Positions 3,302 to 30,336 of a stretch of DNA of 32,324 nt are shown here, one piece after another. The notes under the pieces are model-generated. The model saw only the letters and a list, made by a program, of their open reading frames with translations. It ran no database searches and was not told the DNA's origin. How positions within the stretch are numbered: the first letter of the stretch is position 1; each line of letters begins with the position of its first letter. The translations under genes and the position numbers were made by a program. Source of the stretch: Pseudomonadota bacterium (GTDB lineage: Bacteria; Desulfobacterota; Syntrophorhabdia; Syntrophorhabdales; Syntrophorhabdaceae); NCBI GenBank assembly GCA_026388275.1, contig JAPLKB010000024.1, positions 1 to 32,324 on the forward strand. Reading direction: 5' to 3'.

Positions 3302-5221
3302 TTATGAATTCTTCCTTTCCCCGCCGAACAGCTCTACTATTTTCTTTACTAAAGCCGGCAATGACGGGTCCCTTGCTCCCATGACAAGAATGCAATCACC
3401 TGATTTAACACCGGCTTTAAGTCCGGTCAGCAGCTCATCGCGGCTGCTCACTGCCTGCGCATTGAACGATACTTTGCCAAGACCGTATATGATATCTTCT
3501 GAGGAAATATTTTTTTGGGCAGTACCCCCGGCATAATAAATGGGCAGGAGAAAGAGTGAGTCGTTCTGCCGAAAAACATTTCGAAAGGTTGCAATGTATT
3601 CATCCTTTAGGAATCGAGTCGGACCGAATCCATGCGGCTGATATACGGCAATAATACGCTCTGAAAGTCCCCTTGCGGCACTCACAGCAGCCGCAATCTT
3701 TGCCGGATTGTGGGCAAAATCATCGACTACATGCACGCCCTGTTCTGTTCTGCTGACAGTAAAGCGTCGGGCCACACCCTCGAAATCTCTTACTGCATCG
3801 GCAAGGACCGGCCCCTGGCAGCCTAAATACTCGCAGACACAAAGAGCCGCTCGCAGATTTTCAAGGTTGTGGTTTCCCGGAAGGGGCAAATGATATTCAA
3901 TGTCTTTTCGAAAAAGCTTGACTGAGATCGGCAGGAGTTCTTCATGATCAGGCCGCCACAAGGCCGGACTGCTACGGCCAAATCTAATTGTTGCCGGAAG
4001 AGAAGCAAGAATCGGATCGTCTGAATTGGAAACAGTCCGGGTAGATTTTGAAACAAGCGTTTCAAAAAGCTCTTTTATTTCATCAACACTCTTGTGATCC
4101 TTGGAAATATTAAGAATAACAGCGACCTCCGGAGAATATTTGGTCAGCGTTCCATCGCTCTCATCTGCCTCTACTACCAGGAGATCGGAACCGCCGCTCC
4201 AGGCATTGCCTATGAGTCCCTGTTTTTCAAGCCTGCGCAAAGGAGCGCCGCTTATGAGAGATGGCGATTTCCCGCATGCTGTCAGGAATTCAAATATCAT
4301 TGCCGTTACCGTTGATTTACCGCTTGTGCCGGCCACTGCAATCGTCTTTTTCGACGCTATTATCGCGGCAAGCAGATCGGAGCGATGTGCTATGTGAAGA
4401 CCAAAGGCACGTGCAGCAGTGATATCGGGGTTAGATTCTTCAATGGCCGTTGAGATGCAGATGATATCAATATCCGCACTGACACCTGAACCGTCCTGAT
4501 TGACGATAGTACACCCAAGCCCTTCAAGCGCTTGACAGATGGCTGCAGTATCCTCGCTGGCAAGCAGGCGATCGGAACCTGAGACAGTTATTCCCTGAAA
4601 GCGCAGATATTGTGCAAGGGCGCTCATGCCTGTACCGAAAATGCCGATAAAATGGACACTCCGGCACTGTCTTTTGTCAATAATTATTGGCGGAGCATCG
4701 ATGTAAACAACTGTGCCTTCCCTGACAATATCAAACAGACGGATGATGTCCTGATTGCGTAAAGCGAGGCATCCGTGCGACAAAGGGCTGCCTACCAGAT
4801 CCTCCCGGTTGGTGCCGTGGATATAGATACAGCGCTCATAGGAATTCACCCCGCTGCCCTTGTTTATCCCCTCCTCCAGACCTTCCAGCCGGAGAATTCG
4901 GGTCAGTATCAGATTGTCTTCCATGGAACTCAGATCCCAATCAACCCCGGTGTCTTTACGTTCTTTAAAAATGCGGCCCGAAGGAGCATTGGCTCCGATT
5001 TTCTCAGTAATCCGATGGACGCCGATGGGTGTCCTGAAAGAGTCCTCCCGAATACCATTACCAAAACGTGAGGTAGATGAGTCGAAATGCTCGATGATTC
5101 TATCCTTTTCGCAGACAAAGAGCTTTTGCGCCTCAATTGACTGGACGAGAAAAGGCTCTTCCGGGCTGGCCAGTAAGTTCTGTAATTTTTTATAAATACG
5201 ATTTAATTGAGTGCTTTCCAT
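3302..5221 (-). CDS. L,D-transpeptidase (YkuD) domain fused to MurC/Mpl-type Mur ligase
   Basis: 639 residues in one frame. Residues about 20-175 form a YkuD domain with its signature histidine and cysteine: IHGT at 134-137 and SHGC at 148-151 (nucleophile Cys151). Residues about 187-639 form a complete Mur ligase of the usual ~450-residue size: dinucleotide-like loop HFIGIFGTGMSALA (190-203), ATP P-loop GTSGKST (298-304), EADESDGT (351-358), NISKDH (371-376), and the C-terminal DDFAHNPAKIAAA. The ligase half is closest in motif style to MurC (UDP-MurNAc:L-Ala) but could be Mpl-like (recycled tripeptide to UDP-MurNAc). There is no signal peptide or membrane helix, so the whole protein should be cytosolic, although YkuD enzymes normally work outside the membrane. 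The ATG at 5221 lacks a clear ribosome site, so the start is less certain than the domains. Confidence 0.85.
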   Translation of the reverse strand: MESTQLNRIYKKLQNLLASPEEPFLVQSIEAQKLFVCEKDRIIEHFDSSTSRFGNGIREDSFRTPIGVHRITEKIGANAPSGRIFKERKDTGVDWDLSSMEDNLILTRILRLEGLEEGINKGSGVNSYERCIYIHGTNREDLVGSPLSHGCLALRNQDIIRLFDIVREGTVVYIDAPPIIIDKRQCRSVHFIGIFGTGMSALAQYLRFQGITVSGSDRLLASEDTAAICQALEGLGCTIVNQDGSGVSADIDIICISTAIEESNPDITAARAFGLHIAHRSDLLAAIIASKKTIAVAGTSGKSTVTAMIFEFLTACGKSPSLISGAPLRRLEKQGLIGNAWSGGSDLLVVEADESDGTLTKYSPEVAVILNISKDHKSVDEIKELFETLVSKSTRTVSNSDDPILASLPATIRFGRSSPALWRPDHEELLPISVKLFRKDIEYHLPLPGNHNLENLRAALCVCEYLGCQGPVLADAVRDFEGVARRFTVSRTEQGVHVVDDFAHNPAKIAAAVSAARGLSERIIAVYQPHGFGPTRFLKDEYIATFRNVFRQNDSLFLLPIYYAGGTAQKNISSEDIIYGLGKVSFNAQAVSSRDELLTGLKAGVKSGDCILVMGARDPSLPALVKKIVELFGGERKNS

Positions 5222-5823: not shown

Positions 5824-6858
5824 ATGACTATTGGTATAGTAAGAGATGATATTTACCTGGAACATATCACGGATTCATACCATCCTGAGAACCCTGACAG
5901 ACTGAAAAACATATACTCAATGCTCGATGCCATAGATGACAGCGGTATTGAATATATTTCTCCAAGGATGGCCACGCATGAGGAAATAGCCCTTAACCAT
6001 GATATGTATTACATTGAATCCATCGCTTCTACAAAAGGCAGGGAGAAAAGGCTTGACCCGGATACAGTAGTATCGCCAAAGTCCTACGAAGCATCATGCA
6101 TGGCTGTGGGCGGTATGCTGGAGCTTGCGGATAAGATTGTCGCCAATGAAATCAACTCGGGTTTTGCCCTTGTCAGACCGCCTGGACATCATGCTGAACG
6201 GAACAGAGCCATGGGGTTCTGTATATTCAACAATGTGGCTGTTTGTGCAAGATATCTTGAAAAAAAGTACAAGTTAAACAGGATTCTTATAGTTGATTTT
6301 GATATCCATCATGGAAACGGAACGCAGCACAGTTTTTACCATGATTCTAAAATACTATATTTTTCGACCCATGAATATCCGTACTATCCGGGAACAGGCT
6401 GGTATGAAGAAGTGGGTGAGAATGAAGGAAAAGGATATACAGTCAATGTACCTCTTTCGCAAGGCATGGGAGATCCCGATTACTCATATGTCTTTAAAGA
6501 AGTCCTGCTGCCGATAGCCGATCTGTTCAAACCTGAAATAGTTCTTGTTTCAGCAGGTTTTGATACACACTACAATGACCCGCTGGGCAGCATGAAAGTT
6601 ACTGAAGACGGTTTTGCCGAAATGACGGGCATCCTTCTCGATATTGCAAACAGGCATTGTAACGGTAAGATTCTTTTTGCCCTGGAAGGAGGATACGACC
6701 TGAAGGGACTTACCGACGCAGTGAGGTCTGTCATACTGGAAATGAAGGGCACTTCAGCATCTGCTTCCAAGGGCAAAAAAGGGAACCCTTCAAACGAAGT
6801 TATTTATGTTGTTGAAATGGTAAAGAAAACTCTACGCCCCTACTGGCCTGGATTATAA
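5824..6858 (+). CDS. Histone deacetylase-like (acetoin utilization / HDAC) family amidohydrolase
   Basis: 344 residues, the usual size for bacterial class II-like HDAC-family proteins. Landmarks are RPPGHHAERNRAMGFCIFNN (118-137; active-site His122 and His123), VDFDIHHGNGTQ (157-168; zinc ligands Asp160 and His162), SAGFDTH (243-249; third zinc ligand Asp247) and LEGGYDL near the C-terminus. These enzymes remove acetyl or other acyl groups from lysines or polyamines; the substrate here is unknown. An AAAGGAG site just before the ATG at 5824 supports the start. A strong hairpin follows the stop codon, so this is a single-gene transcript unless expressed from further upstream. Confidence 0.9.
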   Translation: MTIGIVRDDIYLEHITDSYHPENPDRLKNIYSMLDAIDDSGIEYISPRMATHEEIALNHDMYYIESIASTKGREKRLDPDTVVSPKSYEASCMAVGGMLELADKIVANEINSGFALVRPPGHHAERNRAMGFCIFNNVAVCARYLEKKYKLNRILIVDFDIHHGNGTQHSFYHDSKILYFSTHEYPYYPGTGWYEEVGENEGKGYTVNVPLSQGMGDPDYSYVFKEVLLPIADLFKPEIVLVSAGFDTHYNDPLGSMKVTEDGFAEMTGILLDIANRHCNGKILFALEGGYDLKGLTDAVRSVILEMKGTSASASKGKKGNPSNEVIYVVEMVKKTLRPYWPGL

Positions 6859-11069: not shown

Positions 11070-11753
11070 GTGATACAAAAAATGATTGCCATCGTAGATG
11101 ATGAACCGGATATAGTGGAGCTTGTTTCGCTGCATCTCAAAAATGCAGGTTTCAGAACAAAAGAATTTATTGACGTTGAGAGCTTCTATAAGTTTCTTGG
11201 AGCTGAAACCCCTGATCTTATCATACTGGATCTGATGCTGCCTGATACGGATGGATTTGAAGTGTGCAAATTGCTTAAGAGAAATGACCGATATGCTTCT
11301 ATTCCTGTTATTATGCTTACGGCAAAGACGGAGGAGACCGAGAAGGTCCTCGGTCTTGAACTTGGCGCTGATGATTATGTAACAAAACCTTTTTCACCAA
11401 GAGAACTTGTGGCACGGATAAAGGCAGTATTAAGAAGAAACAAACCGAAAGAAGAAACAAAAATAATCAGTATAGGCGATATTTTAAACATAGATTTGGA
11501 AAGATATGAAGTTGAAGTTGAAGGTAAAAAAATAGAATTAACAACAACTGAATTCAAGATCTTACAGCTTCTTGCTTTAAAAAAGGGGAGAATTCAGAGT
11601 AGAGAACAGATTCTGGACCATCTCTGGGGCCAGGAAAAGACCGTCATAGACAGAACCATAGATGTGCATATAAGGCATCTCAGGGAGAAACTGGAAAATG
11701 CGGCAATATTTATTAAAAACATAAGAGGTCTCGGGTACAGGATAGAAGAATGA
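11070..11753 (+). CDS. phoB: Phosphate regulon response regulator, PhoB/OmpR family
   Basis: 227 residues: receiver domain (about 5-118) with acidic pocket DDE at 10-12, phosphoacceptor Asp54 in LIILDLMLPD, Thr84 and Lys106 in KPFSP, then a winged-helix DNA-binding domain (about 128-226) with TTTEFKILQLL and RTIDVHIRHLREKL. The GTG start at 11070 is supported by AGGAG seven bases upstream. It overlaps the sensor kinase gene by four bases (ATGA), so they are translationally coupled. The linked porin and pst genes downstream, and their 11-bp half-site arrays, argue that it is the PhoB-type activator under phosphate limitation. Confidence 0.9.
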   Translation: MIQKMIAIVDDEPDIVELVSLHLKNAGFRTKEFIDVESFYKFLGAETPDLIILDLMLPDTDGFEVCKLLKRNDRYASIPVIMLTAKTEETEKVLGLELGADDYVTKPFSPRELVARIKAVLRRNKPKEETKIISIGDILNIDLERYEVEVEGKKIELTTTEFKILQLLALKKGRIQSREQILDHLWGQEKTVIDRTIDVHIRHLREKLENAAIFIKNIRGLGYRIEE

Positions 11754-13477
11754 AAAAATCGATATTCTTAAAGATATTCGGTTGTTTTTTATTGATAACC
11801 CTTATTATGTCCGGGCTTATTCTGGCTTTTTCTTTTACGGCAGTAAAAGATTATTATATAGAATCAACTGCAAACCATTTAAAAAATCTCGGGATTGCTC
11901 TGGAAGAACAGATTAAACCCTTTTTAGAGAAAAACGATATTAGAGAGTTGAATGCCCTTGCCAGAAAATTGGGGGGCAAAATTCACACAAGAGTTACCAT
12001 TGTCGCTCCAAACGGCACAGTCCTCGCCGATTCAGAAGAAAATCCGGAATTGATGGTAAATCATGGAACAAGACCAGAGATAGCCCAGGCTGTGGAAGGC
12101 AAGACAGGAAGGTTTCTGCGTGAAAGTGAAACATTAAAAAAACAGATGCTTTATATTGCCCTTCCTGTTAAAAAGAATGATAAAACAATAGGGGTTATAA
12201 GGTTAAGCCTGTTCCTGAAAGATATAAATGCAATAATCGACCATGCCAGAATGAGAATTCTGGAAATATCTTCATTAATAATTGCCTTATCCCTATTTAT
12301 ATCTTTCATGTTTGCAAGAAGTCTATCAAAACCCATTAAGGAATTAAGTGCTGTTTCACGAAGAATTGCCGATGAAGATTTCAGCGCCAGGGTATTTTTG
12401 AAAAGCAACGATGAGTTACGGGAGCTTGCAGACAGTTTTAACAGTATGGCAGCTCGAATTAAAGCACTCTTTGATGAGCTGACAAGACAGAAAGAAGAGC
12501 TGGACAGCGTTATATCGTCCCTTCAGGAAGGCATCCTTGTTTTAAACAGAGAAGAAGAAATCGTACTGAGCAACAACAGTTTCAGAAAGATTATCGGGAG
12601 CGACCTTGCTGAAGGAAGGCTGTACTGGGAATGTTTCAGAGCCCCTCAGTTTGATGAACTCATAAAAAAGACAAAAGACACAAAAACCAATATCTCTGAA
12701 GAGATTTCCTTTAACAATAAAACTTTCTTGTGCAGCGCAACCTTCCTTGGCGCAAAGGAAGAAATAGCAGTCATCTTTCATGATATTACCAGCATAAGGG
12801 ATTTGGAAAAGATTAAAACAGACTTTGTTTCCAATATCTCCCATGAGCTTCGCACCCCCCTGACCGCCATAAAAGGTTTCGTGGAAACGCTGCAGGATAA
12901 GGTTGTTTCTGAAGAAAACCGGCATTATCTGGATATTGTTCGCCGAAATACGGATAGACTGATCAATATAATCAATGACCTGCTGTTCCTGTCCGAACTG
13001 GAAGAAAAAAGCATGGAGCTTGTGCCCGCAGAGGTAGACCTGAAGGTTCTTCTTGAAAGCATAACAAGGATTTTTGAACAAAAATTAAAAGAAAAATCCC
13101 TGTCCTTACACATGGATATCAGCGCCAACCTACCGCTTATAAAAGCCGATCCCTTCAAGCTGGAACAAATGTTTATAAACCTGATAGACAATGCGATTAA
13201 GTATACGGAAAAGGGAAGTATAAAAATATCTCTAAAAGAAAAAGAGGGCAAGATCGAAATCGTCATAGAGGACACAGGAATAGGTATTACAAATGAACAT
13301 TTATCAAGAATATTTGAGCGGTTTTATGTTGTTGACAAATCCCGTTCCAAGAAACTCGGCGGAACAGGCCTTGGGCTTTCCATTGTAAAGCATGTTGTTA
13401 TGCTTCATAACGGATTTATAGATGTAAAAAGCACCCATGGCAGCGGCACAAAATTCATCATTGAACTGCCGTTATGA
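11750..13477 (+). CDS. phoR: Phosphate sensor histidine kinase, PhoR-like
   Basis: 575 residues. A first transmembrane helix at about 7-30 and a second at about 170-188 enclose a periplasmic domain of about 135 residues; then HAMP (about 190-240), a PAS-type region (about 250-350), HisKA with SNISHELRTPLTAIKGF (phosphorylated His365), and HATPase with N box NLIDNAIKY (477-485), DTGIGI (509-514) and GGTGLGL (537-543). It should autophosphorylate and pass phosphate to the regulator encoded just upstream, with which it overlaps by four bases. The large periplasmic domain is unlike E. coli PhoR but usual for PhoR/PnpS of many other bacteria; signalling probably still involves the Pst/PhoU complex. 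Confidence 0.88.
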   Translation: MKKSIFLKIFGCFLLITLIMSGLILAFSFTAVKDYYIESTANHLKNLGIALEEQIKPFLEKNDIRELNALARKLGGKIHTRVTIVAPNGTVLADSEENPELMVNHGTRPEIAQAVEGKTGRFLRESETLKKQMLYIALPVKKNDKTIGVIRLSLFLKDINAIIDHARMRILEISSLIIALSLFISFMFARSLSKPIKELSAVSRRIADEDFSARVFLKSNDELRELADSFNSMAARIKALFDELTRQKEELDSVISSLQEGILVLNREEEIVLSNNSFRKIIGSDLAEGRLYWECFRAPQFDELIKKTKDTKTNISEEISFNNKTFLCSATFLGAKEEIAVIFHDITSIRDLEKIKTDFVSNISHELRTPLTAIKGFVETLQDKVVSEENRHYLDIVRRNTDRLINIINDLLFLSELEEKSMELVPAEVDLKVLLESITRIFEQKLKEKSLSLHMDISANLPLIKADPFKLEQMFINLIDNAIKYTEKGSIKISLKEKEGKIEIVIEDTGIGITNEHLSRIFERFYVVDKSRSKKLGGTGLGLSIVKHVVMLHNGFIDVKSTHGSGTKFIIELPL

Positions 13478-13555
13478 AATTGCTGTTAAACTTCTTTAAT
13501 TTCGTTACCATATGATTCAGTTTTAACCGAATATCAATACTTTAATCCAAACAAG

Positions 13556-13609
13556 TTAACCAAAAAATAATAATTCTTTAATATCAAATTAACAAAGCAC
13601 CGTTACAAT
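13556..13609 (+). promoter_or_regulatory. Pho-box array and -10 of the porin gene
   Basis: TTAAC-like half-sites start at 13556 (TTAAC), 13567 (ATAAT, weak), 13578 (TTAAT) and 13589 (TTAAC), all exactly 11 bp apart. TACAAT at 13604-13609 begins 15 bp after the last half-site start. The pstS promoter shows the same geometry. Direct repeats of 11-bp period that replace the -35 are the known form of PhoB/PhoP boxes. Confidence 0.72.
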
Positions 13610-13649
13610 TCTACTACAATATTAAACAATATTATAAAGGAGAAAAGAG

Positions 13650-14975
13650 ATGAAAAAATGGTTTTATGCTTTGACAGGTTTATTTATTGCAATCTTCTGC
13701 ACACAATCAGCATATGGAGCAAGCAGTGAGATGGAAGTTTTGTTGAAGATACTTGAAAAGAAGGGGATCATAACCTATTCAGAGGCTGAAACTATTGCAA
13801 AAGAAACTAAGGAGATTGCCGCTAAAGAAGAAGCAAAGGCCAAAGAGACATTGGCAAAGACAGATGAAGCAAAGAAGGTATTGGAAATACCGGATTGGCT
13901 AAAGAATACGAAATTTAAGGGTGACCTCAGGCTGCGCGGGGAGCTTTCTGACAAGGCCGAGACATCGTCCGGTACGAGAGAAAGGGAACGGTATAGATTG
14001 AGACTGGGCGCTGAGACGGTAATAACCGACCAGGTTACGGTAGGCGTTGGTCTTGGCAGTGGAGAATATGCCAGTACTTTAGCAGGCGCAAACGGCAATG
14101 CGCGCTCACAAAATCAGACAATGAGCGATGCCTTTACCAGGAAACCCATCTGGATAGACTATGCATACGCCAGGTACCAACCAGCAAAGTGGTTTTCCAT
14201 CATAGGCGGTAAGTTCAATAACCCTGTATGGCAGCCCTCCGACTTTCTTCTAACCAATGACATAAACCCTGAAGGTATTGCGATCAAACTGAGCGGTACC
14301 GTATCTCCCTACGTCGATCTCTTTTTTGACGGAGCATTTTATCTCCTTTCAGAGAGAACATCCGATCCCGATGCCATCATGTATGTGGCCCAGCCCGGCA
14401 TTAAGCTTAATTTCACCAAGGATGCATCCCTGAAACTCACTGCCGGATACAACGGCTTCGCAAATGTCACAAGATTTTCTACTCTTACAGGGACAACAAA
14501 CCAGAATACGGTCACGGCCGGGAAGGGGTACACCTATGAGTACAATTCATATGCCTTCGGCGCTGAGCTGGGATTCAAGGATCCATTCGGATCAAAGATA
14601 ATACCATATCTCGGCATTCTGGGCGGATATGTTACCAACCCTGATCCCATACGGGACAACAAGGGATATCTTGCCGGATTCAACATAGGATACCCCAGCT
14701 TGGCAAAGTTTGCTGACTGGAACGTCGAGTACACATTCCGCAGGTATGAAAGAGATGCCATACTCGACATATTCCCTGACGCAAGCTTCTACGGCGGCGC
14801 CACGAATTCTATGGGTCACAGGATTAAGACTGCCTTCGGCTTAACGAAAAATATCAGTCTCGGGCTGAATTACTACAATACCTGGGCAGTCCGACCGGTT
14901 CGATCTGCCGCTAATAGAAATGGCAACCCGGCTACCGAACACTTGGGGCAGTTGGATTTTCTCTTCAAGTTTTGA
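13650..14975 (+). CDS. Outer-membrane porin of the phosphate regulon
   Basis: 441 residues. It has a signal peptide ending near SAYGA, then an alanine/lysine/glutamate-rich coiled-coil-like segment (about 30-78), then a beta-barrel with alternating aromatic strands and a C-terminal phenylalanine (LDFLFKF), the mark of outer-membrane proteins. Segments such as FKGDLRLRGEL, RLRLGAE and IGGKFNNP fit the putative-porin family (Porin_5 type). Placement between the PhoR-like and PstS genes and a Pho-box array at its promoter make phosphate or another anion the likely cargo, by inference. AAAGGAG lies before the ATG. A hairpin follows before pstS. Confidence 0.82.
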   Translation: MKKWFYALTGLFIAIFCTQSAYGASSEMEVLLKILEKKGIITYSEAETIAKETKEIAAKEEAKAKETLAKTDEAKKVLEIPDWLKNTKFKGDLRLRGELSDKAETSSGTRERERYRLRLGAETVITDQVTVGVGLGSGEYASTLAGANGNARSQNQTMSDAFTRKPIWIDYAYARYQPAKWFSIIGGKFNNPVWQPSDFLLTNDINPEGIAIKLSGTVSPYVDLFFDGAFYLLSERTSDPDAIMYVAQPGIKLNFTKDASLKLTAGYNGFANVTRFSTLTGTTNQNTVTAGKGYTYEYNSYAFGAELGFKDPFGSKIIPYLGILGGYVTNPDPIRDNKGYLAGFNIGYPSLAKFADWNVEYTFRRYERDAILDIFPDASFYGGATNSMGHRIKTAFGLTKNISLGLNYYNTWAVRPVRSAANRNGNPATEHLGQLDFLFKF

Positions 14976-15067
14976 AAGCAATATCATAAACAGGGGTTAA
15001 GCTTATATCTTATATTGTTTCTCCATCAACTCTTATTAAAGAATTTAAAAACTATGAGTCAATCAAG

Positions 15068-15107
15068 TGTTCCGGCAAGCAGATAGGTTTATAGGCTTGC
15101 TGGAACA
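15068..15107 (+). terminator. Hairpin between porin and pstS genes
   Basis: TGTTCCGGCAAGC (15068-15080) pairs with GCTTGCTGGAACA (15095-15107) through 13 positions with one G-T pair and a 14-base loop. No run of T follows, so it may be a Rho-dependent end, an mRNA-stabilising 3' end or a dispersed palindrome. It separates the porin transcript from the pstS promoter. Confidence 0.6.
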
Positions 15108-15180
15108 TAATATAATGTTTTATCTACAAACGATGGTCTTTATAAAAGATGCTATAAAATATTTGATGTCGGACATTAAG

Positions 15181-15234
15181 TTAACCGAAACTTAACATTT
15201 CTTTAACGCTCTATTAACAATCTTTCATTATAAT
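15181..15234 (+). promoter_or_regulatory. Pho-box array and -10 of pstS
   Basis: Four perfect TTAAC half-sites start at 15181, 15192, 15203 and 15214, each exactly 11 bp from the next. A consensus -10, TATAAT, lies at 15229-15234, 15 bp after the start of the last half-site. No -35 hexamer is needed in such activator-dependent promoters. The response regulator encoded upstream is the likely binder. Confidence 0.82.
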
Positions 15235-15271
15235 ATTATCATAAATATTTCAAAAGGAGGATGTATAATAA

Positions 15272-16321
15272 ATGAAAACTATCTTTAAAATGTTCCTAGT
15301 GATAACATTACTGTCTTTCGTATTTTCAAATGCTTCATTTGCGAAAGAAGAGGAATTGTTAGGCGCTGGTGCTACATTTCCCCAGCCGCTCTATTCAAAA
15401 ATGTTCGATGCATACAACCAGCAATACAAAGTTAAAGTCAATTACCAGGGTATTGGCTCAGGCGGAGGGATTAACCAGCTAACCAAAAAAACAGTGGATT
15501 TCGGCGGGACCGATGCATTCATGACTGATAAAGAACTTCAAGAAGCGGGTACTCCGGTGCTCCATATTCCCACGAGTCTTGGCGCTGTTGTCGTAACCTA
15601 TAATTTATCCGGGAATCCTAAACTGAATTTTACACCTGATCTGATAGCAGATATTTTTCTCGGCAAGATTAAAAAGTGGAATGATCCGAAGATCTTGTCA
15701 ATAAATCCCGGGATAAAACTGCCGAATCTAACAATCAGCGTTGTCCGTCGTGCTGACGGAAGCGGAACGACTTATATATTCAGCGAATATTTAAGCAAGG
15801 TGAGCAAGGAATGGAAAGAGAAAATCGGCACAGGAAAATCCCTTAACTGGCCTGAAGGTCATATCGGTCAGAAAGGTAATCCGGGTGTAGCCGGATATGT
15901 GAAACAAACGCCCGGCTCAATAGGTTATATAGAACTCTTGTATGCATTGCAGAATAAAATGGCTTTCGGGAATATCAAAAACAAATCAGGCAAGTTTGTA
16001 GAACCCACAATAAAATCAGTGAGCGCAGCAGCTAATGTTAAAATTCCAAATGATACAAACGTTTCCCTGACAGACACTGGTGCAAGCGAAGGCTATCCCA
16101 TAAGCGGTTTTACATGGCTTATATTCTATAAAGAACAAAACTACGGCAGCAGGACTAAAGAAAAGGCTGAGGCCCTTACAAAGCTCTTATTATGGGTTAT
16201 AAAGGATGGTCAGAAATTTGTGGAGCCTCTCCAGTATTCCCCATTGTCCAAAGAGGCTGCGGCAAAATCCGAGAAAATAATAAAGTCGCTGACATATAAT
16301 GGAGCGCAGATACTCAAGTAG
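15272..16321 (+). CDS. pstS: Phosphate ABC transporter, periplasmic phosphate-binding protein PstS
   Basis: 349 residues. A signal peptide runs to about Ala24 (NASFA). The mature protein opens with the family hallmark GAGATFPQPLYSKMF (31-45), followed by QGIGSGGGINQL (59-70) and VDFGGTDAFM (75-84), which line the phosphate site, and VVRRADGSGTTYIFSEYL. It captures phosphate in the periplasm for PstCAB. AAGGAGG lies about 11 bases before the ATG. The gene has its own Pho-box promoter and is separated from pstC by about 190 bases containing a GC-rich hairpin, so pstS mRNA may be more abundant than pstCAB. Confidence 0.96.
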   Translation: MKTIFKMFLVITLLSFVFSNASFAKEEELLGAGATFPQPLYSKMFDAYNQQYKVKVNYQGIGSGGGINQLTKKTVDFGGTDAFMTDKELQEAGTPVLHIPTSLGAVVVTYNLSGNPKLNFTPDLIADIFLGKIKKWNDPKILSINPGIKLPNLTISVVRRADGSGTTYIFSEYLSKVSKEWKEKIGTGKSLNWPEGHIGQKGNPGVAGYVKQTPGSIGYIELLYALQNKMAFGNIKNKSGKFVEPTIKSVSAAANVKIPNDTNVSLTDTGASEGYPISGFTWLIFYKEQNYGSRTKEKAEALTKLLLWVIKDGQKFVEPLQYSPLSKEAAAKSEKIIKSLTYNGAQILK

Positions 16322-16330
16322 TTTCCGTCC

Positions 16331-16430
16331 GGAAAGGGTCATTTTCCGCCCTGGCGGCGTCAATCCGCGGTTTTGCTTGTGCGGCGTACGTGTTGTACGC
16401 CTCCGCGCAATCCCTTGACTTCCTTGCCAG
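16331..16430. repeat. GC-rich palindromic intergenic element between pstS and pstC
   Basis: The core hairpin is GGCGTAC (16383-16389) / GTACGCC (16395-16401) with a GTGTT loop, inside a GC-rich block with further short complementary arms (GGAAA / TTTCC near 16331-16347). Its composition stands out from the AT-rich surroundings, and it resembles a dispersed intergenic palindrome. Its position suggests it could attenuate or process the pstS-pstC transcript. Confidence 0.6.
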
Positions 16431-16515
16431 AACAAAAAAATCCTTCTTTCCGATACTGAAACCGATATTTTCTCATCCGGGATATCCAGATGTAAACTAA
16501 GTCAGGGCTGTTCTT

Positions 16516-17424
16516 ATGCAAAATAGAATGAAAAGTAACATTGATAAATCGGAGAAAGTGTTCCAGGGAGTCCTTGCTTTTTCAGCAATAATAATTGTTG
16601 TGCTGCTTCTCGCTGTTTTTCTCACGCTTGCAGTTTCGTCCCTGTCCTCTGTAAAGGTCTTCGGTCTTAAATTCTTTTTTGGAAAGACCTGGGATGTTTC
16701 GGCGGAAAAGTTCGGAGCCTTCCCATTTCTTGTCGGGACTCTTTTAACATCATTTTTATCCCTGCTTATTTCTATTCCATTTTCCATCTCAATCTCCATT
16801 TTCCTTGGTGAATATTTCAAGGAAGGTCCGGTCTCAACGTTTCTGAGAAGTTCCATAGAAGTGCTGGCCGGCATACCCTCTGTTATATACGGCCTGTGGG
16901 GTTTATTTCTTCTTGTACCCCTTGTAAGATCGTTGGAAAATATATTCGGTGTAGCCCCTCATGGAGTAGGGATACTCGCATCGGCCCTTATACTTGCTAT
17001 TATGATAATCCCTTTTTCAGCTTCAATAGGCCGGGAGGTCGTAACACTTGTTCCTTCTGATTTAAAGGAAGCCGCCTATTCACTTGGCGCAACAAGATTT
17101 GAGGTAATAAAAAACATTATTATCCCCTATGCGCGGTCAGGCATACTTGCAGGGATTTTGTTGGCTCTTGGAAGGGCAATCGGCGAAACAATGGCTGTGA
17201 CCATGCTTATCGGGAACAGCAATTTTCTGCCCACAGGTATTTTCAGCCCTGCCAATACCATGGCAAGCGTTATTGCCAATGAATTTGCCGAAGCAACAGG
17301 AGTAACGGCATCATCACTTATTTATATCGGGCTTGTACTTTTTCTTGTAACAACGGTTGTTAACATCATCGGTATTCATGTAATCAGGAAAATAAGCCTT
17401 GAAACATCTAAAGAGGTGACATGA
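16516..17424 (+). CDS. pstC: Phosphate ABC transporter permease PstC
   Basis: 302 residues with about six membrane helices. A long first helix (about 16-40) leads to the family segments FPFLVGTLLTSFLSLLIS and GIPSVIYGLWGLF, and the cytoplasmic EAA-like loop KEAAYSLGATRFEV that contacts PstB. GRAIGETMAVTMLIGN is a PstC hallmark. It forms the channel with PstA. The ribosome site before 16516 is weak (CAGGG), and an in-frame ATG at 16528 is an alternative. Its stop overlaps the pstA start. Confidence 0.94.
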   Translation: MQNRMKSNIDKSEKVFQGVLAFSAIIIVVLLLAVFLTLAVSSLSSVKVFGLKFFFGKTWDVSAEKFGAFPFLVGTLLTSFLSLLISIPFSISISIFLGEYFKEGPVSTFLRSSIEVLAGIPSVIYGLWGLFLLVPLVRSLENIFGVAPHGVGILASALILAIMIIPFSASIGREVVTLVPSDLKEAAYSLGATRFEVIKNIIIPYARSGILAGILLALGRAIGETMAVTMLIGNSNFLPTGIFSPANTMASVIANEFAEATGVTASSLIYIGLVLFLVTTVVNIIGIHVIRKISLETSKEVT

Positions 17425-18269
17425 TGGAAAGCCATTTGAAAAAAAGGATTTTTAAGGACAGGCTTTTTAAATATCTTGTCGTATTATTTGCATTCATATC
17501 GATCCTTCCGCTTCTGCTTATACTTTACTACATTACGAGAAACGGTATTGCAGTAATCAACTGGGAGTTTCTCACGCAACTCCCCAAGCCCTTCGGTGAA
17601 GCAGGAGGAGGTATTTATAACGCTATAATCGGAACTTTTTTTCTAATTATCCTTTCCAGTGTTTTATCTATACCTTTCGGTATTTCAGCGGGTATTTACC
17701 TTTCCGAGAAAAGTGAAGGAAAGATTGCCCATATGGTCAGATTGTGTGTTGTTGTCCTGCAGGGCACGCCGTCAATCGTGATAGGCATTGTTGTATATAT
17801 GTGGTTTGTAGCACCTTTTAAGGGTTTCTCTGCTTTATCAGGCGGCATTGCCCTGTCCATCATGATGCTGCCCGTTATTATTAAAACAACTGAAGAAACG
17901 CTTAAGCTGATGCCTTATACACTTAAAGAGGCATCTCTTGCCCTTGGCGTGCCTTACTACAAGACAATCCTGAAAGTCATCCTGCCAACAGGCGTGAGCG
18001 GTATTCTTACAGGTATACTGCTGAGTGTTGCAAGAATTACCGGCGAGACAGCGCCGCTCCTTTTTACTGCTTTCGGGAATCAGTTTATGAATTATAATAT
18101 TTTCAAACCTATGGATTCACTGCCCTATCGTATCTTCTATTACGCTATGAGTCCCTACCCGGAATGGCATGCCTTTGCCTGGGGGGCCTCTTTTATTCTT
18201 GTGGCAGTAGTCCTTGGTTTCAATCTCATTGCAAGGGGAATAGCTATTAAATGGAAAGTTCAGTTCTAA
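17421..18269 (+). CDS. pstA: Phosphate ABC transporter permease PstA
   Basis: 282 residues with about six helices. Family features are [44 protein letters not shown] (the loop for PstB) and [17 protein letters not shown]. It pairs with PstC in the membrane channel. The ATG at 17421 overlaps the end of pstC by four bases and a second ATG follows at once (17424). Its end overlaps pstB by 19 bases, so the three genes are translated as a tight unit. Confidence 0.95.
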
Positions 18270-19009
18270 CTGTTAAAGATTTCAGTGCCTTTTTCGGCGA
18301 CAACAGGATATTGAAGGATATCAATATTTCAATTTCGGATAATCTTGTTACTGCACTGATGGGCCCTTCAGGATGCGGTAAGACTACCCTTATCAGATGT
18401 GTGAACAGGATGCATGAACTTATCCCCGGAGCAAAGGTATCCGGGAAGATATATTTAAGGGGCGATGATGTCTACTCTATGGAACCCATCTTATTGAGAA
18501 GAAAAATAGGCATGGTCTTCCAGAAGCCGAACCCTTTCCCTATGATGAGCATCTACGATAATGTCATTGCGGGGTATAAATTGAACGGCATCCGGCTCAG
18601 GAAGGGTGAGTTCGATACGATTGTTGAAAAATCATTGAAAGGCGCTGCTCTTTGGAATGAAGTGAAAGATGCGCTTTACAGGAAAGGCACCTTTCTGTCA
18701 GGAGGACAACAGCAGCGGCTATGCATTGCCCGTGCCCTTGCCATGAACCCGGAAATACTGCTTCTCGATGAACCTACTTCAGCATTAGACCCGAAATCAA
18801 CTGCTCATATTGAAGAGCTCATCGTCGAACTAAAAAAGAATGTGACCATGCTTCTTGTTACCCATAATATTGCCCAGGCGGCAAGAGTGTCTGATTTTAC
18901 CGCTTTTATTTACCTGGGCGAACTTATAGAATTCGGTCCAACTGAAAAAATGTTTACCGTGCCGAAGGATAAGCGGACCGAAGAATATCTCACAGGAAAA
19001 TTCGGATAG
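18251..19009 (+). CDS. pstB: Phosphate ABC transporter ATP-binding protein PstB
   Basis: 252 residues, standard size. Walker A is GPSGCGKTT (38-46), the Q loop is [10 protein letters not shown] (a PstB trademark), the signature is LSGGQQQRL, Walker B is [13 protein letters not shown] and the switch histidine is in LLVTHN. It hydrolyses ATP to drive phosphate import through PstCA. The start at 18251 lies inside the end of pstA. The spacing to phoU is 12 bases. Confidence 0.96.
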
Positions 19010-19021
19010 GAGACAGATGGA

Positions 19022-19690
19022 ATGTTAGGTGAAAAGATAAAAGAACTACGAAGAGAACTTATAGAATATGCCACATTTGTCGAGAATATGATCGACAAAA
19101 GTATTAATGGTCTTCTCAGCAAAGATCGGGAACAGCTCGATGAAGTTATAGAAAAGGATGAGCCGAAGGCAAATGAAACGGAAATCATACTGGATGAACT
19201 ATGCACCGGGATGATTGCTCAGTATCAGCCGAAAGCAAAGGATTTAAGGACAATACTTATGGTTTTGAAGATAAATAACGATCTCGAAAGGATTGCCGAC
19301 TATGCGGTAAATATCTCCAAAAGCGCACTTTTCCTGATAGATCGCCCACAGGTAAAACCATTGACAGACACACCTAAAATGGCGGAAGAATCAGTAAAAA
19401 TGTTGAAAGACAGCATCAGCTCATACATAAATGAGGATCCGGTGCTTGCGCAAAATGTATGCGAAAGGGACAGTGTTGTTGATGAACTGGGAAATAAGAT
19501 TTTACAGGAACTTATTACATTGATGGCAGCAGATCCTTCTAAAATAGAGCGTTCCCTCCATCTTCTGAAAATAGCCAGAAGCCTTGAGCGTATTGCCGAT
19601 CTTTCAACGAATATCTGTGAAGATGTCATATTTATGGTTGAGGGAGAAGTTATAAAACACAATATATTTGACAAGAGTATTCCGATGTAA
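19022..19690 (+). CDS. phoU: Phosphate signalling regulator PhoU
   Basis: 222 residues, all-helical, with two repeats of the PhoU three-helix fold. Metal-site-like motifs are seen as LKINNDLERIADYAVNI in the first half and LKIARSLERIADLSTNICED in the second. PhoU links the Pst transporter to the sensor kinase and represses the regulon when phosphate is plentiful. It is the last gene of the pst transcript; AGGAG lies nine bases before the ATG. No clear terminator follows. Confidence 0.95.
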   Translation: MLGEKIKELRRELIEYATFVENMIDKSINGLLSKDREQLDEVIEKDEPKANETEIILDELCTGMIAQYQPKAKDLRTILMVLKINNDLERIADYAVNISKSALFLIDRPQVKPLTDTPKMAEESVKMLKDSISSYINEDPVLAQNVCERDSVVDELGNKILQELITLMAADPSKIERSLHLLKIARSLERIADLSTNICEDVIFMVEGEVIKHNIFDKSIPM

Positions 19691-25933: not shown

Positions 25934-25955
25934 CGTCCCGGTCTCCACCGGGATG
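25934..25955 (+). promoter_or_regulatory. Hairpin at the junction before RHS cassette 1
   Basis: TCCCGGT (25936-25942) and ACCGGGA (25947-25953) form a perfect 7-bp stem with a CTCC loop; two further outer pairs are possible. It starts about 20 bases after the CoA ligase stop and marks the boundary with the RHS array. There is no T-run, so termination is uncertain. Confidence 0.5.
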
Positions 25956-27911
25956 GCATCAGCAGCTGCACGGGGTGAAAGACTTACAAGTGAGAGGGGG
26001 GTTATGTCCTTCTTAACGACAGTTGGAAGGCCCAGTTATATAGTTATGGATGTCCCGAAAATCATATACACCTATGATGCCAACCACCGCCTCGAATCCG
26101 TTGCTGACAGCCGCGGCAGCAAGACCCTCTTTTACAGCTACAGCCCCGGCGGACTCCTCAACCGTATGTCTGATTCTGACGGCAACCGTACCGATTATAA
26201 ATACGATCCTGTAGGAAGGCTCTCCGGCATCTATGCTCCTAATAATGACTATGTTGCTTTCCGCTATGACGACGGAGGCAGGCTCGCCGAGAAGTGGTTA
26301 TCTAATGGTGTCAATACCCAATATACCTATAATCCTGACAACAGCCTTGCCAAGGTAGTCAACCTTACATCATCTTCATCCGTTATCAGCCAGCACGACT
26401 ACACCTACGACCCTTTCGGCAACCGTCAGACCCATACGGAACAAATAGGTTCGACAAACACTCCTTATAAGTACATTTATGATGCACTTAACCGCCTAAC
26501 CGAAGTGTGGAACAACTCGAACAATACCCTCAAGGAACGCTATGGTTATGATCCTCTTGGCAACAGGAAAACAAAGACCGACGGAACCAATATTGTCTAT
26601 TACGTCTATGATGCAGCAAATCAATTGAATTCAATAAGACAGGGCAGTGAAAACGGCGCTGTTGTTGTGAACCTTCACTATGATTACAACGGTAACATGG
26701 ATCAGAAGACAGAAGATGAAGGAACAACCGTAACGGATATTACATATGATGCCTTAAACCGCCTTACACAGGTAAACAAGACCGGCCAATCAACTCAAAC
26801 ATATGCCTACGATGACCAGGGCCGCAGGATCAGCAAGACAGTCGGTGCGTCAACAACGAACTTCCTTTATAACGGCCCTGACATTATCGCTGAATACACG
26901 AACTGGACAACCGCTGCTGCTCAGTATACCCACGGCCCCAACATGGATGATCCGATCATCAGAACCGCCGGTACAGCAAAGCAATACTACCATCAGGACG
27001 GGTTAGGAAGTGTGGTTGCCGTCTCTGACCAGACAGGGGCAACAACAGGCACCCAGCGCTTTGATGCATGGGGGAATAAGATCGCCGGCAGCGGAACAAT
27101 CCCTCAATACGGCTACACCGGAAGGGAACCGGATGAGACAGGACTGATCTACTACCGGGCAAGGTATTACGATCCGACCATAGGAAGATTTACACAGAGA
27201 GACCCTATAGGCATGAATGGTGGAATTAATCCCTATGCCTATGTAAATGCCAATCCGGTGAACTTCACTGATCCGATGGGGTTGATGGCAGAGAGCTGGC
27301 AGATAAATAATAACACACAGAATACGAACTATTACAACAATACGAGCAGTGATACAAAAAGTTTTGGCAATATGGTTGCGGATGCATTGAAGGCTGGTTT
27401 GGAAAGTGATTCGTCAACACCTGAATGGTACGATCCTTCCATGATGTTGGCAGGAGGCAAGGGCACACCTGCTAAGGGGAAAATAGCTTTTAAAGAATTA
27501 CCAGTTTCTGGATATGGATTTTACACCTATGGAAGGGAGGATGGTCATTTCGGACAGGAGAAAACTATTGAATCTATAAAGAATATTGGTGAATCATGGA
27601 GCAACATATGTCCCGAATATCAACGTATTGGGGTAGGTAATATAAGTTTAGAAAGTGGCGGTAAATTCCTACCACATTCATCACATCAAAACGGCCAGGA
27701 TGTCGATGTTCGACCAATGAGAAATGATTGGGTAGAATCAAACGTATCTTATAAGTCACCATATTATAGTCAGGAATTGACACAAGGATTGGTAAACATT
27801 CTATTAAAGAATCCAAATATTGACAAAATACTGTTCAATGATCCAGGCATAAAAGGTGTTCAGCCTTACAAGGGTCACGATAACCACCTGCATATTCATT
27901 TTAAAAAATGA
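25953..27911 (+). CDS. Orphan RHS cassette 1 with MepA/M74-like peptidoglycan endopeptidase tip
   Basis: Up to 652 residues. After a non-RHS leader (about 1-37), YD-repeats run from about 38 to 320 (YTYDANHRL, YDPVGRLSGI, YDALNRLTEV), then the RHS-associated core (DGLGSVVAVSD, YTGREPDETGLIYYRARYYDP, RFTQRDPIG, NPYAYVNANPVNFTDP) ending at DPMGL (440-444). The unique tip (about 470-652) has SGGKFLPHSSHQNGQDVDV, with His578 and Asp585 in the H-x6-D arrangement of murein endopeptidase MepA, and a closing GHDNHLHIHF. It should cut peptidoglycan peptide cross-links. It is far too short for a full RHS protein and has no secretion domain. The better start may be the ATG at 26004, preceded by GAGAGGGGGG. 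The next gene, nine bases on, is the likely immunity gene. Confidence 0.83.
   Translation: MASAAARGERLTSERGVMSFLTTVGRPSYIVMDVPKIIYTYDANHRLESVADSRGSKTLFYSYSPGGLLNRMSDSDGNRTDYKYDPVGRLSGIYAPNNDYVAFRYDDGGRLAEKWLSNGVNTQYTYNPDNSLAKVVNLTSSSSVISQHDYTYDPFGNRQTHTEQIGSTNTPYKYIYDALNRLTEVWNNSNNTLKERYGYDPLGNRKTKTDGTNIVYYVYDAANQLNSIRQGSENGAVVVNLHYDYNGNMDQKTEDEGTTVTDITYDALNRLTQVNKTGQSTQTYAYDDQGRRISKTVGASTTNFLYNGPDIIAEYTNWTTAAAQYTHGPNMDDPIIRTAGTAKQYYHQDGLGSVVAVSDQTGATTGTQRFDAWGNKIAGSGTIPQYGYTGREPDETGLIYYRARYYDPTIGRFTQRDPIGMNGGINPYAYVNANPVNFTDPMGLMAESWQINNNTQNTNYYNNTSSDTKSFGNMVADALKAGLESDSSTPEWYDPSMMLAGGKGTPAKGKIAFKELPVSGYGFYTYGREDGHFGQEKTIESIKNIGESWSNICPEYQRIGVGNISLESGGKFLPHSSHQNGQDVDVRPMRNDWVESNVSYKSPYYSQELTQGLVNILLKNPNIDKILFNDPGIKGVQPYKGHDNHLHIHFKK
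26071..26626 (+). repeat. Near-identical RHS block, copy in cassette 1
   Basis: About 556 bp matching 31693-32248 in cassette 3 at a constant offset of 5622, with only scattered single-base differences and no gap. Homology begins abruptly at CCTATGATGCC and ends abruptly after TCAATT. This suggests duplication or gene conversion. Confidence 0.88.
26821..27283 (+). repeat. RHS core block shared by cassettes 1 and 2 (copy 1)
   Basis: Highly similar to 29213-29681, with one 6-base length difference near the GNKIAGS / GNKQSSGS segment. It covers the end of the YD-repeats and the RHS core up to DPMGL. Weak similarity continues for about 25 codons beyond (TQxTNYxN, NTSxDT), so the true exchange point lies past the core motif. 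Confidence 0.85.
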
Positions 27912-29212: not shown

Positions 29213-29681
29213 GCCGCAGGATCAGCAAGACCGTCGGTGCGTCAACAACGAACTTCCTCTACAACGGCCCCGACATCGTATCAGAATACACTAACTGGAC
29301 AACCGCTGCAGCTCAGTATACACATGGTCCCAACATGGATGATCCGATCATAAGAACCGCCGGAACAACAAAACAATACTACCATCAGGATGGGTTAGGA
29401 AGTGTGGTAGCAGTCTCTGATCAGACAGGGGCTACAACCGGTACCCAGCGCTTCGATGCATGGGGGAACAAACAATCATCGGGATCAACGGGGACGGTCC
29501 CTCAATACGGCTACACCGGAAGAGAACCGGATGAGACAGGACTTGTTTACTACCGGGCAAGGTATTACGATCCGACTATAGGAAGGTTCACACAGAGAGA
29601 CCCTATAGGTATGAATGGTGGAATTAATCCATACGCCTACGTAAATGCCAATCCGGTAAACTTTACCGATCCGATGGGGCT
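29213..29681 (+). repeat. RHS core block shared by cassettes 1 and 2 (copy 2)
   Basis: Counterpart of 26821-27283. It codes for the end of the YD-repeats and the RHS core to DPMGL. The preserved core after the frameshift shows that the break in frame is recent or tolerated. Confidence 0.85.
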
Positions 29682-30336
29682 TAAACTGAGGGAAATAGGC
29701 CAGATGAATTATGACACACAGATCACAAACTATTTTAATACGAGCAATGATACGACACAAGGGCAGGGGTTGAGTGCAGGGAGTCAGGGGCTCAGTCAGG
29801 TGGCGGCATCGAATGAAACCACCGATGAAGCGCAAAAAGTTGTAGCTCAAGGGGGATGGCCATGGGCGGCTATCTCTCTTGCGTCAACAAGCGATTCCCC
29901 AGCATCTATAAACAGGCTGAATGCGATATTTTGGCTTGCTAAAATCATCTATGCCGAAAGTAGATCGGATTGGAGAGTACCAGGAGCGTTAGAGGCTACG
30001 GCTTGGACGGTTCGCAATCGTGTTGAAACAGAAGGCTTTCCATGGACCTATTACGAAGTAATTACAGCTCCCGATCAATTTTCATCGGTAACCAGTACGA
30101 AAAATACTGGATGGGGAGATTTTGTTAATACTAATCTCTCTAAAGAAAAAGCCGCTGTGCGCGATAGGTGCTTTGAGGTAGCTAAAGGAGTGTACGATGG
30201 ATCGACAGCGGATCCCACCAAAGCTGTTACAGGAGGTGCACTGTTCTTCCATGCGGTTGACCCCTCTTATCAGCCACTACCTGGAGAAATCAGATTTGGT
30301 GGTCAAGTCTATTATAGGAATTATAAAAAATGGTAA
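29335..30336 (+). CDS. RHS cassette 2 core with SleB-like cell-wall hydrolase tip
   Basis: 333 residues from the first ATG in this frame; the RHS frame is open further back to about 29190, where a one-base shift cuts it from its upstream half. Residues 1-116 are the RHS core (DGLGSVVAVSD, GREPDETGLVYYRARYYDP, DPMGL at 112-116). After a low-complexity linker, the tip (about 195-333) shows LAKIIYAESR (Glu208 at the catalytic position), GALEATAWTVRNRVE, ITAPDQFSSV and DPTKAVTGGALFFHA. This is the pattern of SleB/CwlJ-type cell-wall hydrolases (Hydrolase_2), which cleave the glycan strands of peptidoglycan. No good ribosome site precedes the internal ATG, so expression needs frameshift correction or recombination. 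The gene is followed after 27 bases by a secreted small protein. Confidence 0.78.
   Translation: MDDPIIRTAGTTKQYYHQDGLGSVVAVSDQTGATTGTQRFDAWGNKQSSGSTGTVPQYGYTGREPDETGLVYYRARYYDPTIGRFTQRDPIGMNGGINPYAYVNANPVNFTDPMGLKLREIGQMNYDTQITNYFNTSNDTTQGQGLSAGSQGLSQVAASNETTDEAQKVVAQGGWPWAAISLASTSDSPASINRLNAIFWLAKIIYAESRSDWRVPGALEATAWTVRNRVETEGFPWTYYEVITAPDQFSSVTSTKNTGWGDFVNTNLSKEKAAVRDRCFEVAKGVYDGSTADPTKAVTGGALFFHAVDPSYQPLPGEIRFGGQVYYRNYKKW

Follow-up and report, generated by a model that had tools for sequence, protein, structure and literature searches.

A YkuD/Mur-ligase fusion as a candidate cytosolic peptidoglycan-recycling enzyme in a Syntrophorhabdaceae bacterium and its relatives

Why would a bacterium join a YkuD domain to a Mur ligase, and what would the product do? 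The question is raised by a gene on contig JAPLKB010000024.1 of a Syntrophorhabdaceae bacterium (assembly GCA_026388275.1), of which a stretch of 32,324 nucleotides, referred to here as the window, was analysed. A preliminary description had claimed that the two enzymes lie in one frame without a signal peptide, and had proposed that the protein might take part in peptidoglycan recycling in the cytosol, performing steps like those of LdcA and Mpl. The open reading frame (ORF) on the minus strand was uninterrupted from its ATG and encoded, in 639 aa, a complete YkuD domain and a complete three-domain Mur ligase. All four Pfam domain matches exceeded the curated cut-offs and the motifs named for both halves were present, which bears out the single-frame arrangement; GTSGKST and EADES/DG were kept across the aligned fusions. 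No N-terminal hydrophobic segment was found in the fusion: over its first 60 residues, the highest Kyte-Doolittle mean of any 19-residue stretch was 0.32, as compared to 2.4 and 2.2 for the two other YkuD-family matches in the genome; the claimed lack of a signal peptide agrees with this low hydropathy (a dedicated signal-peptide predictor was not run). The full-length fusion was modelled by AlphaFold2 with 48 aligned sequences, giving a mean predicted local distance difference test score of 90.7 and a predicted template modelling score of 0.89.

We consider it probable (about 0.7) that the fusion is a cytosolic bifunctional peptidoglycan-recycling enzyme, which would convert tetrapeptide to tripeptide and ligate the tripeptide to UDP-N-acetylmuramic acid (UDP-MurNAc), the LdcA and Mpl steps thus falling to one chain. 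The recycling role put forward in the preliminary description is the best-supported reading, on the basis of the ElsL-like YkuD half, the arginines lost from the ligase acceptor site, the separate murC, the presence of AmpG without detected Mpl or S66 LdcA in the genome, and the overlapping gene pairs of relatives. What we infer is that both activities exist, which substrates they use, in which order they act and that coupling them is of benefit. Muropeptides would be imported by AmpG, the YkuD half would remove the terminal D-Ala from the tetrapeptide, and the C-terminal ligase would use ATP to join the tripeptide to UDP-MurNAc. The resulting UDP-MurNAc-tripeptide would then be extended by MurF.

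The only NCBIfam model matched by the YkuD half at E ≤ 1e-8 was ElsL (NF040925), with 120 bits, under the cut-off of 270 bits. ElsL of Acinetobacter is a cytosolic YkuD L,D-carboxypeptidase that cleaves tetrapeptide, leaves pentapeptide uncut and requires the catalytic Cys; Cys138, which aligns with the YkuD catalytic cysteine, is necessary for function (PMC8649774). The fusion resembles ElsL in its YkuD catalytic core, its catalytic Cys and His and its cytosolic location (by hydropathy for the fusion). It differs in carrying a ligase, whereas ElsL is a stand-alone protein, and in scoring below the ElsL cut-off. Residues H135, C151, R108 and R130 were unchanged in 37/37 homologous YkuD rows, and H149 of the SHGC motif varied among them. 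MurC, MurD, MurE and MurF were found separately in the source genome, on contig C8. The possibility that the ligase half is the only MurC of the genome, attached to an inert YkuD remnant, is refuted by the separate murC. LdcA of the S66 family would share the proposed pathway step but is an unrelated protein; no Peptidase_S66 domain was found among the Pfam matches of the fusion protein. Lone ElsL-like YkuD genes were observed at three further loci (L046, L048 and L051), in WOR-3/Stahlbacteria-type genomes without S66 and without canonical Mpl above the cut-off, and the ElsL match was shown for L048 and L051.

Without ElsL, Acinetobacter baumannii accumulates UDP-MurNAc-tetrapeptide and toxic tetrapeptide stems (PMC8649774), which provides a reason to couple trimming and ligation: one chain, or a translationally coupled pair, would keep untrimmed tetrapeptide out of dead-end precursors. 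The accumulated UDP-MurNAc-tetrapeptide could also be taken to favor the reverse order, in which ligation comes first and the YkuD half then serves as quality control, trimming the UDP-MurNAc-tetrapeptide that the ligase half has produced and not the free tetrapeptide. This order is unlikely in our view. Mpl does ligate tetrapeptide, less efficiently (PMC3060825), but ElsL activity was shown on a disaccharide tetrapeptide (PMC8649774), and trimming before ligation is therefore possible.

The ligase half had been described as MurC-type. The top NCBIfam match of the fusion was murC (TIGR01082; 293 bits), under the cut-off of 335 bits, and the Mpl model (TIGR01081) gave 94 bits, under a cut-off of 388.7 bits. 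MurT was not among the 25 best NCBIfam families listed for the fusion (no search was made for a GatD partner). The tree placed a branch with a support of 100 between the fusion-type ligases (from fusions, split pairs and ligase-only loci) and both MurC and Mpl, and Mpl formed its own clade, also with a support of 100; a joint clade of the fusion-type ligases with Mpl was compatible with the data (p = 0.467 in the approximately unbiased test). Judged from its sequence, the ligase half belongs to a clade separate from both MurC and canonical Mpl. By its score it is not a MurC proper, and a canonical Mpl identity is ruled out by the score and the tree position, though the clade may be sister to Mpl.

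Acceptor-site columns were counted over 31 MurC, 11 Mpl and 40 fusion-type clade rows. R377 and R380 of HiMurC (EcMurC 383 and 386) have been assigned to L-Ala binding, and a tyrosine is also among the MurC amino-acid-binding residues (PMC3060825). At the EcMurC R386 column, Arg was present in 31/31 MurC rows and Pro in 40/40 fusion-type clade rows. The R383 column held Arg (22) or Leu (9) in the MurC rows and Gly in 40/40 clade rows. All 40 clade rows had Asn at the H355 column, and Phe at the Y352 column was found in 38/40 of them as well as in 11/11 Mpl rows. The corresponding motif reads DDFAHNP in the fusion, DDY[G/A]HHP in MurC and DDFAHHP in Mpl. The fusion ligase is like MurC in fold, in its ATP and UDP-MurNAc domains and at ~30% identity, and differs in lacking the L-Ala-site arginines. 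With Mpl it would share the proposed reaction, the Mur ligase fold and the Phe-Ala of the DDFAH motif; it differs in its separate clade, its YkuD domain and its acceptor loop, which is QPHGFGPT in place of the EPRSN type of Mpl. The Mpl motif (S/T)AFFDKRSK (PMC3060825) was not found in the translated ORF. NCBIfam also holds the MurC-Ddl (NF011171) and MurE-MurF (NF008896) fusions, which likewise place two wall-precursor steps in one chain; these are biosynthetic, whereas the present fusion joins a hydrolase to a ligase in a proposed recycling route.

These data bear on a second alternative, that the protein is an additional, specialised MurC whose ligase half attaches one amino acid, L-Ala or a different one, to UDP-MurNAc, the YkuD half being regulatory or sensing. 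The murC model was the best match, structure comparison of the ligase half placed MurC structures closest (Z about 37; full-length Mpl 3hn7, Z 30), and overexpressed E. coli Mpl can itself take L-Ala (PMC3060825). However, the murC score was under its cut-off, a true murC was present in the genome, both L-Ala-site arginines were replaced in 40/40 clade members, the YkuD active site was intact, and an ElsL-type partner domain points to peptides. We judge a specialised MurC to be quite improbable.

YkuD enzymes elsewhere carry out transpeptidation and exchange, and the YkuD half had been proposed to trim or exchange the terminal D-Ala. Of these, trimming is the likelier; a cytosolic YkuD half that swaps D-Ala for another D-amino acid, or forms L,D bonds, before the ligase takes up the edited peptide is very hard to credit, since this half matched the model of the carboxypeptidase ElsL and none of the LdtE-type models, which matched the secreted YkuD protein L052 of the same genome, and a crosslinked substrate is not expected in the cytosol.

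The muropeptide importer AmpG was present in the source genome (E = 2e-148), in which neither a canonical Mpl above the cut-off nor an S66 LdcA was found. The sample used for co-occurrence comprised 395 genomes of the phylum. The fusion-type ligase clade was present in 23 of these, as a fusion in 9 (one cut by a contig end) and as the ligase only in 14. Mpl at E < 1e-69 was detected in 0/23 genomes with the clade versus 210/372 others, weaker matches to the Mpl model being taken as MurC cross-hits from their E-values. S66 LdcA was detected in 4/23 versus 223/372. Among further genomes with the fusion or the gene pair, to which other loci had led, Mpl above the cut-off and S66 were each found in 0/22, a count from metagenome-assembled genomes (MAGs) with completeness not reported, three of which lacked the MurC cross-hit too. 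A Myxococcota genome with the ligase only (L041) had both Mpl and LdcA.

Several observations weigh against the recycling role. The Fisher p-values for the above comparisons (1e-8 for Mpl, 1e-4 for S66 LdcA) ignore relatedness, and five genomes of the same family as the source (G097, G125, G152, G224 and G245) had neither the fusion nor Mpl, so that lineage accounts in part for the absence of Mpl. Two fusion genomes, G286 and G324, also had S66 LdcA. Neither a NagZ-type GH3 (PF00933) nor an AmpD-type amidase (PF01510) was found in the source genome, leaving the pathway between import and the fusion enzyme, in which the peptide would have to be released from anhydroMurNAc, incomplete as seen. 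Ligase-only members of the clade exist, and neither a profile nor the ORFs inspected revealed a YkuD gene beside their loci. Because Leu also occurs among the MurC rows at R383, that column is weak when taken alone, which does not apply to R386. The fusion-bearing relative G177 has a GH3 gene (PF00933) that runs into the start of ampG (L137:102-2820). A Syntrophorhabdus ligase (L032:5923-7371) is nested among the fusions and has no YkuD half, and its upstream gene encodes a solute-binding protein.

Scanning genome contigs yielded 45 relatives, the majority being full-length fusions from MAGs of Syntrophales-like Thermodesulfobacteriota, Nitrospirota and Fibrobacterota; the aligned relatives (n = 28) had identities of 58-82%, a range that takes in about 26 fusions of full length. 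Full-length fusions in independent assemblies show that the fusion is neither a chance event nor the product of joining two genes by a sequencing or assembly artefact, a concern raised in the preliminary description. In seven Fibrobacterota loci the YkuD and ligase genes were separate and overlapping, in different frames. In the split-pair sequences examined, a TTG in the ligase frame lay 14 nt upstream of the YkuD stop, preceded by a purine-rich stretch that could be a ribosome-binding site; the exception was L042, for which the four start codons considered did not include one at this distance. We read the overlapping pairs as translationally coupled, and expression through a programmed frameshift is a possible alternative.

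The fusion ligase of the source genome was 71-78% identical to those of Nitrospirota, compared with 57-58% for MurC. The higher identity of the fusion ligase is consistent with lateral movement of the whole fusion between phyla as one unit. A broader scenario, to which we give even odds, is that a third MurC/Mpl-type ligase family took over murein-peptide ligation and joined a cytosolic L,D-carboxypeptidase, initially in the form of an overlapping gene pair and later as a single gene moving between phyla, coupling trimming to ligation and replacing LdcA and Mpl.

Table 1. Positions in the window of the fusion gene, its domains and the residues discussed. Residue numbers refer to the 639-aa protein.
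Feature	Position	Strand	Details
YkuD/Mur-ligase fusion gene	3302..5221	-	stop codon 3302-3304; 639 aa
ElsL-like YkuD domain, residues 26-174	4700..5146	-	Pfam PF03734, 4e-18
Mur ligase N-terminal domain (UDP-MurNAc-binding type), residues 189-291	4349..4657	-	PF01225, 3e-13
Mur ligase middle (ATP) domain, residues 296-463	3833..4336	-	PF08245, 8e-15
GTSGKST loop within the middle domain	4310-4330	-	
Mur ligase C-terminal (acceptor-binding) domain, residues 485-617	3371..3769	-	PF02875, 1e-14
His135, YkuD active-site histidine	4817..4819	-	unchanged in 37/37 YkuD rows
Cys151, YkuD catalytic cysteine (SHGC)	4769..4771	-	unchanged in 37/37 YkuD rows
DDFAHNP, residues 500-506	3704..3724	-	columns counted in MurC, Mpl and the fusion-ligase clade
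QPHGFGPT, residues 528-535	3617..3640	-	Gly531 and Pro534 at the MurC arginine positions

A conserved operon around the fusion was looked for by comparing ten window neighbours with 39 related loci and was rejected, as almost none of them recurred near fusions. Elsewhere in the window, a histone deacetylase-family protein (PF00850, 2e-102) is encoded at 5824-6858. The region 11070-19690 holds a response regulator and a histidine kinase, then a porin-like ORF, a phosphate-binding-type protein, two permeases, an ATPase and a PhoU-like ORF, and from the translations it looks like a phosphate uptake cluster. An RHS-repeat protein whose C-terminal part is Peptidase_M74-like (25953-27911) and another RHS-like ORF, which carries a Hydrolase_2 (cell wall hydrolase) domain (29335-30336), each have a small ORF after them that matches no Pfam family.

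No description of a YkuD/Mur-ligase fusion was found in the open-access literature, the scope of the search (subscription journals and preprints lay outside it), and domain databases may already list the architecture. If the proposed role is correct, the fusion would supply the Mpl and LdcA steps in bacteria that have AmpG but neither of these enzymes, would indicate which recycling genes to seek in Thermodesulfobacteriota, Nitrospirota and Fibrobacterota, and would correct annotation of such proteins as MurC. Members of the fusion-type ligase clade can be tested for in sequence data by the QPHG[FY]GPT signature. A hydrolase fused to a ligase that would use the hydrolase product makes substrate coupling in peptidoglycan recycling directly testable.
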